Assembly (NCBI GenBank): GCA_902543535.1 | Contig: CACBYG010000002.1 | Coordinates: 62,001-126,000, forward strand | Source: an uncultured Pelagibacteraceae bacterium | GTDB lineage: Bacteria; Pseudomonadota; Alphaproteobacteria; Pelagibacterales; Pelagibacteraceae | Length of the DNA: 64,000 bases | Direction of reading: 5' to 3' | In this document: in pieces, positions 8,237 to 11,240 of the stretch | Layout: each line of letters begins with the position of its first letter | How positions within the stretch are numbered: position 1 is the first letter of the stretch | The notes under the pieces: generated by a model | The model's input: only the letters and a program-made list of their open reading frames with translations | What the model was told of the DNA's origin: nothing | Databases searched by the model: none | Position numbers and translations under genes: made by a program

Positions 8237-9253
8237 ATGTATACTGTTAATACTAAAATTAATAATCAATTATCTTTTTGGTTAATTTCAATGTTTATTA
8301 TAATTTCTATTATGATTGTAGTTGGTGGTTTAACCAGACTAACTGACTCTGGTCTATCTATAACAAAATGGCAATTATTTTCAGGATTACTTCCACCTCT
8401 AAATCAAAACGATTGGATATTATATTTTAATTTATACAAAGAAATTCCTGAGTTTAAGTTACAGAATTTCAATATGAGCCTAAAAGAATTTAAAGTTATT
8501 TTCTGGTGGGAGTGGGCTCATAGATTTTTAGGTAGATTAATAGGATTGTGTTATCTATTTCCACTTATATATTTTTCCTTCAAATTAAAAATTTCAAAAA
8601 TACTTGATTTATATTTTATTTTTTTCCTAATTTGTTTCCAAGGATTTATTGGTTGGTATATGGTCAGCAGCGGTTTAGTTGATAGAATAGATGTTAGTCA
8701 CTTTAGATTGTCTGCTCATTTGTTTATTGCTTTTTTAATTTTATCATTAATTTTTTGGAATTATTTAAAATATCAAAACTATAATCAAGTTCCAGATGGA
8801 ATAAATCCAATTATTCCATTTATATTTTTAGTTTTAATTTTAATACAAATTGTAATTGGTGCATTTGTATCAGGAATGGATGCGGGGAAAATTTATAATT
8901 CTTGGCCCCTTATGGGAAATACTTATTTTCCAGATGATAATAATTTAGAGAATTTATTTAAATTATCTGCTTTGAGTGATCCCTCATTGGTTCAGTTTAT
9001 TCACAGAAACATGGCATATGTAATTGGATTATTTTATGTATTTATATTTTTTAAAATCTATAAAAATAAAACAAATAAACTCTATAGATCAGTAAACATA
9101 TTAGGTTTTTTTATAATTATACAGATTATTTTAGGAATTTATACAATTGTACTCGGTGCACATATTTATATTGCTGCTTTACACCAAGTAAGTTCAATTT
9201 TTTTAATATCTTCTTCTATTTATTTTTTCTATATAAATACCAGAACTAACTAA
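8237..9253 (+). CDS. ctaA: heme A synthase (CtaA/Cox15)
   Basis: CtaA oxidises heme O to heme A for cytochrome aa3 oxidase. The 338-aa membrane protein has about eight hydrophobic segments and the Cox15 signatures GGLTRLTDSGLSITKW near residue 30-45, FWWEWAHRFLGRLIG near residue 93, a central HFRLSAHL with paired His, FIHRNMAYVIG near residue 254 and LGAHIYIAALHQ near residue 313. These carry the conserved heme-ligand His residues. The 3' end overlaps convergent metY by 8 bases. Confidence 0.95.
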   Translation: MYTVNTKINNQLSFWLISMFIIISIMIVVGGLTRLTDSGLSITKWQLFSGLLPPLNQNDWILYFNLYKEIPEFKLQNFNMSLKEFKVIFWWEWAHRFLGRLIGLCYLFPLIYFSFKLKISKILDLYFIFFLICFQGFIGWYMVSSGLVDRIDVSHFRLSAHLFIAFLILSLIFWNYLKYQNYNQVPDGINPIIPFIFLVLILIQIVIGAFVSGMDAGKIYNSWPLMGNTYFPDDNNLENLFKLSALSDPSLVQFIHRNMAYVIGLFYVFIFFKIYKNKTNKLYRSVNILGFFIIIQIILGIYTIVLGAHIYIAALHQVSSIFLISSSIYFFYINTRTN

Positions 9254-10574
9254 CTGCTTTAAGATTACCTTTTGAGGATTTATTTAAAGCTTGATCTAAA
9301 TCTTCAATAATATCATCAATATGTTCGATACCAATGCACAGTCTAACGTAACTTTGTGTTACGCCAGATGCAGCTAGTTCTTTTTCATTTAATTGGCTGT
9401 GTGTTGTGCTTGCTGGGTGTATAGCTAAACTTCTAGCATCACCAATATTGGCAACATGATAAAACATTTTTAAAGACTCTATGAATTTTTTTCCAGCTTC
9501 AATCCCACCTTTTAGCTCAATACCAACCATTGGTCCATTTCCACCTTTTAAGTATTGTTTAGCTCTATCAGAAATATGCTTATCATGTTCTGTTGAGTAA
9601 ATTACTTTGGTTACTTCTTTATGATTTTTTAAAAAATTAACAGCCTTTTGTGCATTTTCACAGTGCTGTTTCATCCTTAAAGCCACAGTCTCGAGACCTT
9701 GTATAATTGCAAAAGCATTATCAGGCGCACATGCTGACCCTAGATCTCTCAACAGACAAACTCTAGCACGTACAGCAAAAGGAACATTTGCACCAGTCAT
9801 CTCGGGCACTGCTTTTCCCCATATAACATTGTTATAGCTAGCATCTGGTTCGTTAAATAATGGCTGTCTTTTAGGATCAGCTGTCCAATCGAAATTACCA
9901 CTATCAACAATACTTCCAGCGATTGCTGTTCCATGCCCACCAATATATTTTGTCAAAGAATGAATAACCACTGCAGCCCCATGTTCTATAGGTTTGCAGA
10001 TGACAGGGGCGGCAGTATTATCCATTATAAGAGGAATATTATATTTTCTTCCAATATCTGAAACTTCTTTAATGGGAAATACTCTTAAATATGGATTAGG
10101 TAGAGTTTCACCATAAAAGGCTCGTGTATTATTATCAATTAGTTTTTCAAAATTTTTAGGATCACTTGGGTCTGCATATCTTATTTCTATTCCAAGCTTA
10201 CTAAGTGTGTTGTTAAATAATGATACAGTTCCACCATATAAATCAGTAGAACTCACTATATTATCACCAGCTTGAGCAACATTTAATACAGCAAATGATG
10301 ATGCTGTTTGACCTGATGAAACAGTTACACATGATAAACCACCTTCAAGAGCGGCAACTCTTTTTTCTAATACGTCATTTGTGGGATTCATTATTCTGGT
10401 ATAAATATTTCCAAACTCTTTTAGCGAAAATAGGTTTGCTGCATGCTCTGTACTGTTAAATTCATAAGATGTAGTTCTATATATAGGCACAGCTACAGCA
10501 TTTGTTGCAGGATCACTTCTGTAATCCCCACCGTGCACTGCAATAGTCTCAGGATTGTTTCTTTTAGTAGTCAT
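9246..10574 (-). CDS. metY: O-acetylhomoserine sulfhydrylase (MetY)
   Basis: A PLP enzyme that makes homocysteine from O-acetylhomoserine and reduced sulfur. The frame is open back to 10619, but ATG 10574 has a strong ribosome site AAAGGAG and gives the normal N-terminus MTTKRNNPETIAVHGG; the earlier frame runs through the riboswitch. The 442-aa protein shows YTRIMNPTNDVLEKRVAALE, the pyridoxal-binding Lys in HSLTKYIGGHG, and the family C-terminal PASTTHSQLN. It is preceded by two SAM-responsive aptamers (10581-10696), so excess SAM should shut it off. Homoserine dehydrogenase, which supplies the precursor branch, is encoded at 12956. Confidence 0.96.
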   Translation of the reverse strand: MTTKRNNPETIAVHGGDYRSDPATNAVAVPIYRTTSYEFNSTEHAANLFSLKEFGNIYTRIMNPTNDVLEKRVAALEGGLSCVTVSSGQTASSFAVLNVAQAGDNIVSSTDLYGGTVSLFNNTLSKLGIEIRYADPSDPKNFEKLIDNNTRAFYGETLPNPYLRVFPIKEVSDIGRKYNIPLIMDNTAAPVICKPIEHGAAVVIHSLTKYIGGHGTAIAGSIVDSGNFDWTADPKRQPLFNEPDASYNNVIWGKAVPEMTGANVPFAVRARVCLLRDLGSACAPDNAFAIIQGLETVALRMKQHCENAQKAVNFLKNHKEVTKVIYSTEHDKHISDRAKQYLKGGNGPMVGIELKGGIEAGKKFIESLKMFYHVANIGDARSLAIHPASTTHSQLNEKELAASGVTQSYVRLCIGIEHIDDIIEDLDQALNKSSKGNLKAVS

Positions 10575-10580
10575 AATATA

Positions 10581-10634
10581 CTCCTTTTTTAGTGCTTTAA
10601 CATGATGTAAGGCGCACAATACAGTTCAAATGCC
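10581..10634 (-). promoter_or_regulatory. SAM-V riboswitch overlapping the metY ribosome binding site
   Basis: Read on the minus strand, the aptamer starts GTAGGC (P1 5' side), has the core ATTTGAACTGTATTG, then GTGC followed by GCC (P1 3' side), and ends GCACTAAAAAAGGAG. P1 is GUAGGC with GCCUUAC (one bulge). The pseudoknot pairs GUGC with GCAC and leads straight into the Shine-Dalgarno sequence, so SAM binding would hide it. This agrees with the published SAM-V class from marine SAR11-type bacteria, recalled from knowledge and not checked against a covariance model. Confidence 0.88.
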
Positions 10635-10655
10635 TACCGATACTTAATGAGAATT

Positions 10656-10696
10656 CCTCTTTAGCAGTTTAAAGCCCGCAATAGGATCAAATCGGC
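10656..10696 (-). promoter_or_regulatory. SAM-II riboswitch aptamer upstream of SAM-V
   Basis: Minus-strand reading: GCC, then GATTTGATCCTATTGC, then GGGC, a TTTAAA linker, and CTGCTAAAGAGG. This matches the SAM-II layout (P1, GAUUUAACC loop, GUAUUGC, P1', then GCUAAAAAGG pseudoknot strand) at nearly all conserved positions, although P1 is short (3-4 bp). It lies 21 bases upstream of the SAM-V aptamer. No hairpin with a U-run follows, so the expression platform is not obvious. Confidence 0.78.
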
Positions 10697-10702
10697 ATAA
10701 TC

Positions 10703-10730
10703 TTTTTATCAAATTAAGACCTATTATCAA
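10703..10730 (-). promoter_or_regulatory. metY promoter
   Basis: On the minus strand, TTGATA (10730-10725) and TAAAAA (10708-10703) are 16 bases apart. Initiation about 7 bases downstream would fall at roughly 10696, exactly where the SAM-II aptamer begins, which makes the assignment attractive. It lies back to back with the rplM promoter. Confidence 0.5.
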
Positions 10731-10743
10731 GATAAATATAAAA

Positions 10744-10771
10744 TTGACATTGATTTTAATAATAGTATTAA
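10744..10771 (+). promoter_or_regulatory. rplM-rpsI promoter
   Basis: A consensus TTGACA at 10744-10749 is followed after 16 bases by TATTAA at 10766-10771. Transcription would begin near 10778, only a few bases before the rplM ATG at 10782, and no Shine-Dalgarno is visible (TCCTCGCACA precedes the ATG). The rplM message may therefore be nearly leaderless. Confidence 0.5.
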
Positions 10772-10781
10772 TCCTCGCACA

Positions 10782-11240
10782 ATGACTAAATTCCTTAAAA
10801 AAGACCAAATAACATCATCTTGGTATGAAATTGATGCAACTAATGCTGTTGTCGGAAGATTGGCAACGGTTGTTTCAAATATTATAAGAGGAAAAAATAA
10901 AACAACTTATACTCCACATATGGATGACGGTGATTTTGTTGTTGTCAAAAATATTGAACAAATAAAATTCACAGGGAAAAAATTTCAAGACAAGAAGTAC
11001 TACAGACATACAGGTCACCCTGGTGGAATTAAGATTAATACACCTGAAAAATTACATGAAAAAAAACCAGGTGAAACTTTGAAACTTGCAGTTAAAAGAA
11101 TGTTACCCGGTGGAGTTTTGGGTCGAAAACAATTAACTAAATTAAAAATTTATGCAGGTAATGATCACCCGCATTCTGCACAGAATCCAAAAGTTATCGA
11201 ATTAAATAAATTGAACAGTAAAAATTTAGCAAGAAATTAA
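10782..11240 (+). CDS. rplM: 50S ribosomal protein L13
   Basis: A 152-aa L13 with the standard start (WYEIDATNAVVGRLAT), GDFVVVKNIEQIKFTGKK near residue 47-64, YYRHTGHPGGIK near residue 69 and the RMLPGGVLGRKQLTKLKIY block near residue 106-124. It is the first gene of the rplM-rpsI operon, one base before rpsI, and is divergent from metY across a 207-base regulatory gap. Confidence 0.97.
   Translation: MTKFLKKDQITSSWYEIDATNAVVGRLATVVSNIIRGKNKTTYTPHMDDGDFVVVKNIEQIKFTGKKFQDKKYYRHTGHPGGIKINTPEKLHEKKPGETLKLAVKRMLPGGVLGRKQLTKLKIYAGNDHPHSAQNPKVIELNKLNSKNLARN

Follow-up and report, generated by a model that had tools for sequence, protein, structure and literature searches.

The leader of metY in the stretch of Pelagibacteraceae DNA analysed here (64,000 nucleotides, referred to below as the window) appears from its sequence to be a previously unrecorded form of the SAM-II/SAM-V tandem riboswitch, for which a mechanism of strand exchange is proposed. 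Its first element is a shortened SAM-II-like core, a predicted SAM binder, which probably exchanges strands with the linker ahead of SAM-V and may relay its state to the second aptamer. Pelagibacter cells are among the most abundant in the sea and possess few regulators. Their growth requires reduced sulfur (PMC5069961), and the regulated genes considered here, metY and mmuM, are methionine genes.

Two cores upstream of metY

The source genome (G000) is Pelagibacter-like, 1.1 Mb in size and 80% complete. metY lies on the minus strand, opposite rplM, which runs from 10782 onwards on the plus strand (TIGR01066); 207 bases separate the two genes, and this neighbourhood is the one listed for Ca. 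P. ubique (PMC2704228). The following features were assigned:

9246..10574, minus strand: metY, O-acetylhomoserine (thiol)-lyase, 442 aa, the regulated gene (open reading frame; TIGR01326, 566.7 bits, cut-off 495.1)
10578..10644, minus strand: SAM-V riboswitch aptamer (Rfam RF01826, 81.5 bits, cut-off 41)
10636..10641, minus strand: candidate anti-aptamer strand AUCGGU, complementary to GCCGAU at 10691-10696 (complementarity scan, pair counts, minimum-energy fold)
10636..10655, minus strand: linker between the cores, without terminator (sequence; no terminator-like site)
10656..10696, minus strand: shortened SAM-II-like core, element 1 (strict pattern in 80/80 metY leaders; conserved like SAM-V)
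10694..10696 with 10674..10676, minus strand: P1 of element 1, GCC with GGC, 3 bp
10688..10693, minus strand: L1 of element 1, GATTTG
10678..10687, minus strand: 5′ strand of P2 of element 1, ATCCTATTGC
10656..10665, minus strand: 3′ strand of P2 of element 1, GCTAAAGAGG

Both of the cores quoted by the earlier note are present on the minus strand. The second is the single riboswitch in the window that scores above the Rfam cut-offs: SAM-V reached the RF01826 gathering score with an E-value of 7.2e-12 in a search of the whole window. Its P1 strand is AGGC at 10632-10635 on the minus strand, and its 3′ part contains the Shine-Dalgarno sequence AAGGAG (about 10581-10586), just as had been proposed. 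In this part GCACTAAAAAAGGAG is followed by TATATT ATG, and the Shine-Dalgarno sequence lies within about ten bases of the metY start codon. The second core is a full member of its class placed over the metY ribosome-binding site, and no difference in the aptamer was seen; selective binding of SAM has been shown for the homologous metY SAM-V of P. ubique (PMC6061858).

The first core, read from 10696 to 10656 on the minus strand, is GCC GATTTG ATCCTATTGC GGGC ... GCTAAAGAGG. This stretch, GCCGATTTGATCCTATTGCGGGCTTTAAACTGCTAAAGAGG (10656-10696), ends twenty bases ahead of the first SAM-V helix and has both the order and the letters of the SAM-II pseudoknot, namely P1 (GCC:GGC), L1 (GATTTG) and P2, in which (U)CC..UUGC faces GCUAA..GG(A). 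With the SAM-II families (RF00521, RF01726) it shares the pseudoknot pairing potential, the SAM-contact motifs and the order of elements, while differing from them in its P1 of 3 bp, in the short loop before GCTAAA, in the absence both of a terminator and of a start codon directly after it, and in its Rfam score. The last is well below the gathering threshold: RF01726 gave 14.3 bits against a cut-off of 44 (E 9 over 701 bases), and no match of RF00521 to the first core was listed at E-values up to 10. The covariance check suggested beforehand, with the Rfam models of SAM-II and SAM-V, therefore supported the second core and failed for the first. As a judge of the first core Rfam was nevertheless rejected, because the SAM-II before bhmT in G026, an HTCC1062-like genome, also fails, reaching just 15.5 bits with RF00521 (cut-off 36). 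The name HTCC1062-like reflects the positions of SAM-V in G026, which lie within gaps that PMC2704228 lists for HTCC1062.

The region 10560-10860 contains three promoter-like sites on the two strands (mean of 1.8 in shuffled sequence), and a scan of it found no terminator-like site, in agreement with the earlier remark that no terminator follows the first core. Elsewhere in the source genome (C5), a sub-threshold SAM-II match (L002; 32.9 bits, cut-off 44) precedes a gene that by eye resembles metX.

Conservation of the first core and the two tandem architectures

A SAM-II-like core upstream of SAM-V, as originally assigned, is borne out by the metY leaders that were picked by protein similarity, all 80 of which carry the strict core pattern directly before SAM-V. 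They represent the best 80 of 578 relatives, found in Pelagibacteraceae, Pelagibacterales and Ca. Pelagibacter ubique records, and comprise 78 distinct leaders of near kin, with proteins that are 90-99% identical. The mean pairwise identity among them is 0.92 for the core and 0.92 for SAM-V, compared with 0.72 for the linker and 0.74 for the 40 bases upstream. The argument from conservation is based on this set, because the counts of 148, 145, 111, 34 and 31 leaders were obtained with patterns in which the core is already required. Since it is conserved in 80/80 leaders, on a par with SAM-V, the first core is accepted as real, far beyond chance, despite its Rfam score.

The motifs GATTT, ATTGC and GCTAAA are likewise present in all 80 of these leaders. 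Eight SAM-II contact positions have been named (PMC11508383), and these were assigned to the three motifs by motif rather than by structure. A covariance model, R1, was built from 32 copies of the core (alignment A1). The copies were chosen with a pattern that demands most of the contact letters; two canonical SAM-II sequences that also matched it were excluded, and the boundaries of one row were adjusted manually. The invariance of the contacts within A1 is for this reason partly by construction. Six of 40 stretches that were fetched do not match the core pattern; one is a stretch of 50 bases and the other five, inspected singly, are R1 matches that also retain all three contact motifs. The first core likely senses SAM, as SAM-V does.

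The support from pairing is thin. The P1 and P2 pairs of the first core form in 98.6% of cells, compared with 15.6-61.1% for slid versions, yet shuffles already give 97.2%. A slide by +1 column shows more covariation than P1/P2 as assigned (0.069 versus 0.045) and more cells changed on both sides (5 versus 3), yet only 61.1% pairing. Changes on both sides are few, consisting of G-C to A-U in P1 (one mmuM copy) and U-A to A-U in P2 (two copies).

Of 300 genomes of the genus, some of which are incomplete, 124 have an R1 match at an E-value up to 0.01 (weak in six, 0.002-0.01). In the order R1 matches 100 of 297 genomes, and matches outside the genus have E-values of 3.8e-6 or weaker. When metY was sought in ten genomes without an R1 match, five yielded a 43% homologue and five (G043, G105, G083, G093 and G051) a metY of 77-79% identity, whose leaders (L237-L241) do not contain the tandem. 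SAM-V was detected in just one of the latter five, G093 (L240, 57.2 bits); in the leaders of G043, G105, G083 and G051 neither SAM-V nor the core was detected. The control of metY thus differs within the genus.

The earlier note had also regarded such tandems as already described, which does not hold for this leader. In the passages covered, the tandems in print consist of SAM-II, a terminator and SAM-V (PMC9481103, PMC11508383); in the original 120 tandems SAM-II is stated always to precede a terminator (PMC9481103), and for the metY leader of Pelagibacter ubique SAM-V is the single element given (PMC2704228, PMC5069961). No description of the first core before metY was found in these passages or in the literature listings searched. 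The metY leader shares with the published tandem a SAM-II-type core followed by SAM-V, an association with methionine genes and an occurrence in marine bacteria (PMC9481103, PMC11508383), but the published form is described as invariably containing an intrinsic terminator after SAM-II, the one studied preceding bhmT, whereas the metY form has a shorter core and no terminator.

The canonical form was also found here, in 11 distinct leaders with a longer SAM-II, then a terminator, then SAM-V; the genes that follow are bhmT-like in genus g1 and metY in genera g2 and g4. All 11 linkers contain a run of seven or more T, and their complementarity is to the 3′ strand GCUAAAGCG (9 bp in 8/11; mean z -4.22, compared with -0.55 for the 5′ arm); to judge from these features, the canonical linker is the usual antiterminator/terminator pair. 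Among the 145 short-core leaders, which precede metY and mmuM in g1, no linker contains such a run, and in 142 the helix between 3′ strand and linker has 3-5 bp. These linkers are 22-33 nt long when counted to the SAM-V core, which includes the P1 strand; counted to SAM-V P1, the linker of the window has 20 nt. The short core, the absence of T runs and the helix of just 3-5 bp, set against a published form described as always terminator-bearing, indicate that the metY leader is a different form from the published tandem. The target of the linker would differ accordingly, being the 3′ strand in the canonical tandem, as deduced here from the canonical leaders, and the 5′ arm in the metY form.

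Complementarity between the linker and the 5′ arm

How the first core acts had been left as unclear in the earlier note; a candidate answer is provided by the complementarity of the linker to the 5′ arm of that core. In a scan of 31 dereplicated leaders, the duplex energy of each linker was computed against 12-nt segments of the leader. Relative to composition shuffles, mean z values of -2.75, -3.48 and -3.29 were obtained for the segments at -6, -3 and 0 around GCC, and values between -0.6 and +0.2 for the other segments. Dinucleotide shuffles left a modest signal at the same three places (-0.59, -1.18 and -1.34). The best helix falls on the 5′ arm in 29 of 34 leaders, for an expectation of 15.7.

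In metY leaders the linker strand (A)AAUCGG(U/C) faces GCCGAUUU of the arm. The letters T[CT]GG[TC], which pair with GCCGA of the arm, are found in the linker of 110 of the 111 distinct metY leaders, and the five inner pairs between arm and linker are kept as Watson-Crick or G-U pairs in the same proportion (110/111; L139 breaks the first pair), in a pair table that was itself built with a pattern for the linker letters. In the window an extra pair joins A10635 to U10697, and the candidate strand adjoins SAM-V P1. Other letters are used by mmuM leaders: UUUACCGAUU pairs with AAUUGGUAAA in L114, UUUGCUGAUU with AAUUAGUAAA in L193 (p 0.002), UUGCCGAUUU with AAAUUGGCAA in L192 and AUUUGAU with AUCAAAU in L119. 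Between L114 and L193 a C-G pair is replaced by U-A, with both sides altered, which constitutes a compensating change. In 11 of the 27 mmuM leaders with SAM-V the arm helix has just 5 bp, and no significant helix between arm and linker was found in three (L189, L198 and L202) of the five R1 matches outside the pattern.

In 24 of the 31 leaders the minimum-energy fold joins arm and linker by five pairs or more. In that of the window leader UGCCGAU is paired with AUCGGUA, and UCCU:AGGA and GCGG:CUGC are retained inside; since these are kept beside the arm-linker helix, the P2-like pairs would survive the rearrangement while P1 is exchanged. The match between arm and linker is not significant in the window leader itself (p 0.29; p 0.33), and the case for the linker is therefore built on the set of leaders.

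A model of strand exchange and its alternatives

Strand exchange with the linker is proposed because no terminator follows the first core. At low SAM, the linker would pair with the 5′ arm, which comprises the P1 strand and the L1 strand with its SAM contacts, thereby opening P1 and removing L1, and the P2-like pairs could persist as a plain nested hairpin. At high SAM, the first core would close P1 around SAM and set the linker free. The least certain step is the passing of this state to SAM-V, which we infer from the position of the linker strand, adjoining SAM-V P1 and overlapping it by one base; both aptamers would then fold together and translation would be switched off, with decay of the mRNA as a likely second effect. 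The predicted outcome is that metY would be switched off more steeply as SAM rises, through two unlike aptamers and without stopping transcription. A stricter version, in which the linker takes the place of a P1 strand of the first core and SAM binding by that core directly sets the folding of SAM-V, amounts to a terminator-free relay and is put forward tentatively, as a possibility that we hold to be short of probable; if true, metY and mmuM of Pelagibacter would offer a case of genuine cooperativity between unlike classes of riboswitch.

Expression data from Ca. P. ubique bear on this model. Under sulfur limitation metY mRNA rises 7.14-fold and mmuM mRNA 6.08-fold (PMC5069961, Table 1), and in the HTCC1062-like genome G026 the leaders of both genes carry the terminator-less form. 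A rise in mRNA is not directly predicted by a purely translational switch. The first core could help to explain it, SAM-V being held to be translational; SAM-V by itself could equally be the cause, if mRNA that is not translated decays.

The first core also occurs apart from an intact SAM-V. Two of the 29 distinct mmuM leaders, L168 (G434) and L177 (G536), contain the short core without SAM-V, and in L230 and L231 the short core is intact beside an altered SAM-V core (TTTAAAC); on account of these four leaders, the first core seems to act by itself too. In the minimum-energy fold of L168 the arm-linker helix is absent. A SAM-dependent hairpin at the start codon was considered for the mmuM leaders without SAM-V and was rejected, since L168 has such a hairpin in both folds and L177 has none. 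A leader peptide following the Shine-Dalgarno-like AAAGAGG of the first core was also discarded, as inspection of the 80 leaders by eye found no start codon at a fixed downstream place.

The occurrence of the core without SAM-V in these two mmuM leaders is what would be expected if the first core were a working SAM aptamer acting alone, for instance on mRNA stability or on RNA polymerase, with two independent cores, pseudo-cooperativity and a linker that is not a switch. The 6- to 7-fold rise of metY and mmuM mRNA in sulfur limitation (PMC5069961) and the description of pseudo-cooperative tandems (PMC9481103) point the same way. Such an arrangement, however, does not explain why, of all segments of the leader, the linker should complement just the 5′ arm, and it offers no expression platform, which makes it an unlikely account, though one to be taken seriously. 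The complementarity would lose its meaning if the conserved TCGG before SAM-V were part of SAM-V or a protein site, and the match to the arm a by-product. TCGG is indeed a short motif that adjoins SAM-V P1, and part of the signal can be put down to dinucleotide content (z about -1.3). The SAM-V of the canonical tandem, however, reads A[AG]CC[AG]GG at this place, 11/11 without TCGG, and mmuM leaders of the same genus pair with the arm by other letters, including one compensating change, albeit through helices of which many are weak; we regard this explanation as improbable.

Two further readings concern the nature of the first core. Variants of SAM aptamers with different ligands exist (PMC10853860), but the SAM-contact motifs are unchanged here and the genes are methionine genes, so that recognition of a different ligand by the first core is very improbable. 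Hardly credible at all is the view that the first core is a former canonical SAM-II, now without its terminator and in decay: the sub-threshold Rfam score, the short P1 and loop and the lack of a terminator would all suit decay, whereas the strict pattern in every one of the 80 leaders and an identity equal to that of SAM-V, while linker and upstream bases drift, do not.

If strand exchange between the first core and the linker is correct, its consequences extend to published measurements. Calorimetry and crystallography of the metY SAM-V were carried out on a piece of 53-55 nt (PMC6061858), and the crystal structure, of a 53-nt piece, thus does not include the upstream core; should the full leader hold an additional SAM core together with an exchange strand, the behaviour of metY may not be described by affinities of the short piece. 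The SAM-II of bhmT is silenced by its linker in vitro, a puzzle in print (PMC11508383), and silencing by the linker may be more general among these tandems, directed at another target strand in the metY form.

Similar short cores were also seen in other settings. Six leaders from genera g12 and g9 (L215-L218, L220 and L221) contain a short SAM-II-like core before metX-like genes, named by family search for L217 and by likeness for L215, L216, L218, L220 and L221, and no SAM-V was seen in them. In all six a hairpin directly follows the core, beside the start codon, with arms that vary yet stay complementary; it resembles a platform acting on translation or as a weak terminator. In L222 (family f2), where the R1 match is weak (E 0.004), the 3′ strand CGGAGG of a SAM-II-like core stands just before ATG, as though this SAM-II, like SAM-V, masked the Shine-Dalgarno sequence.
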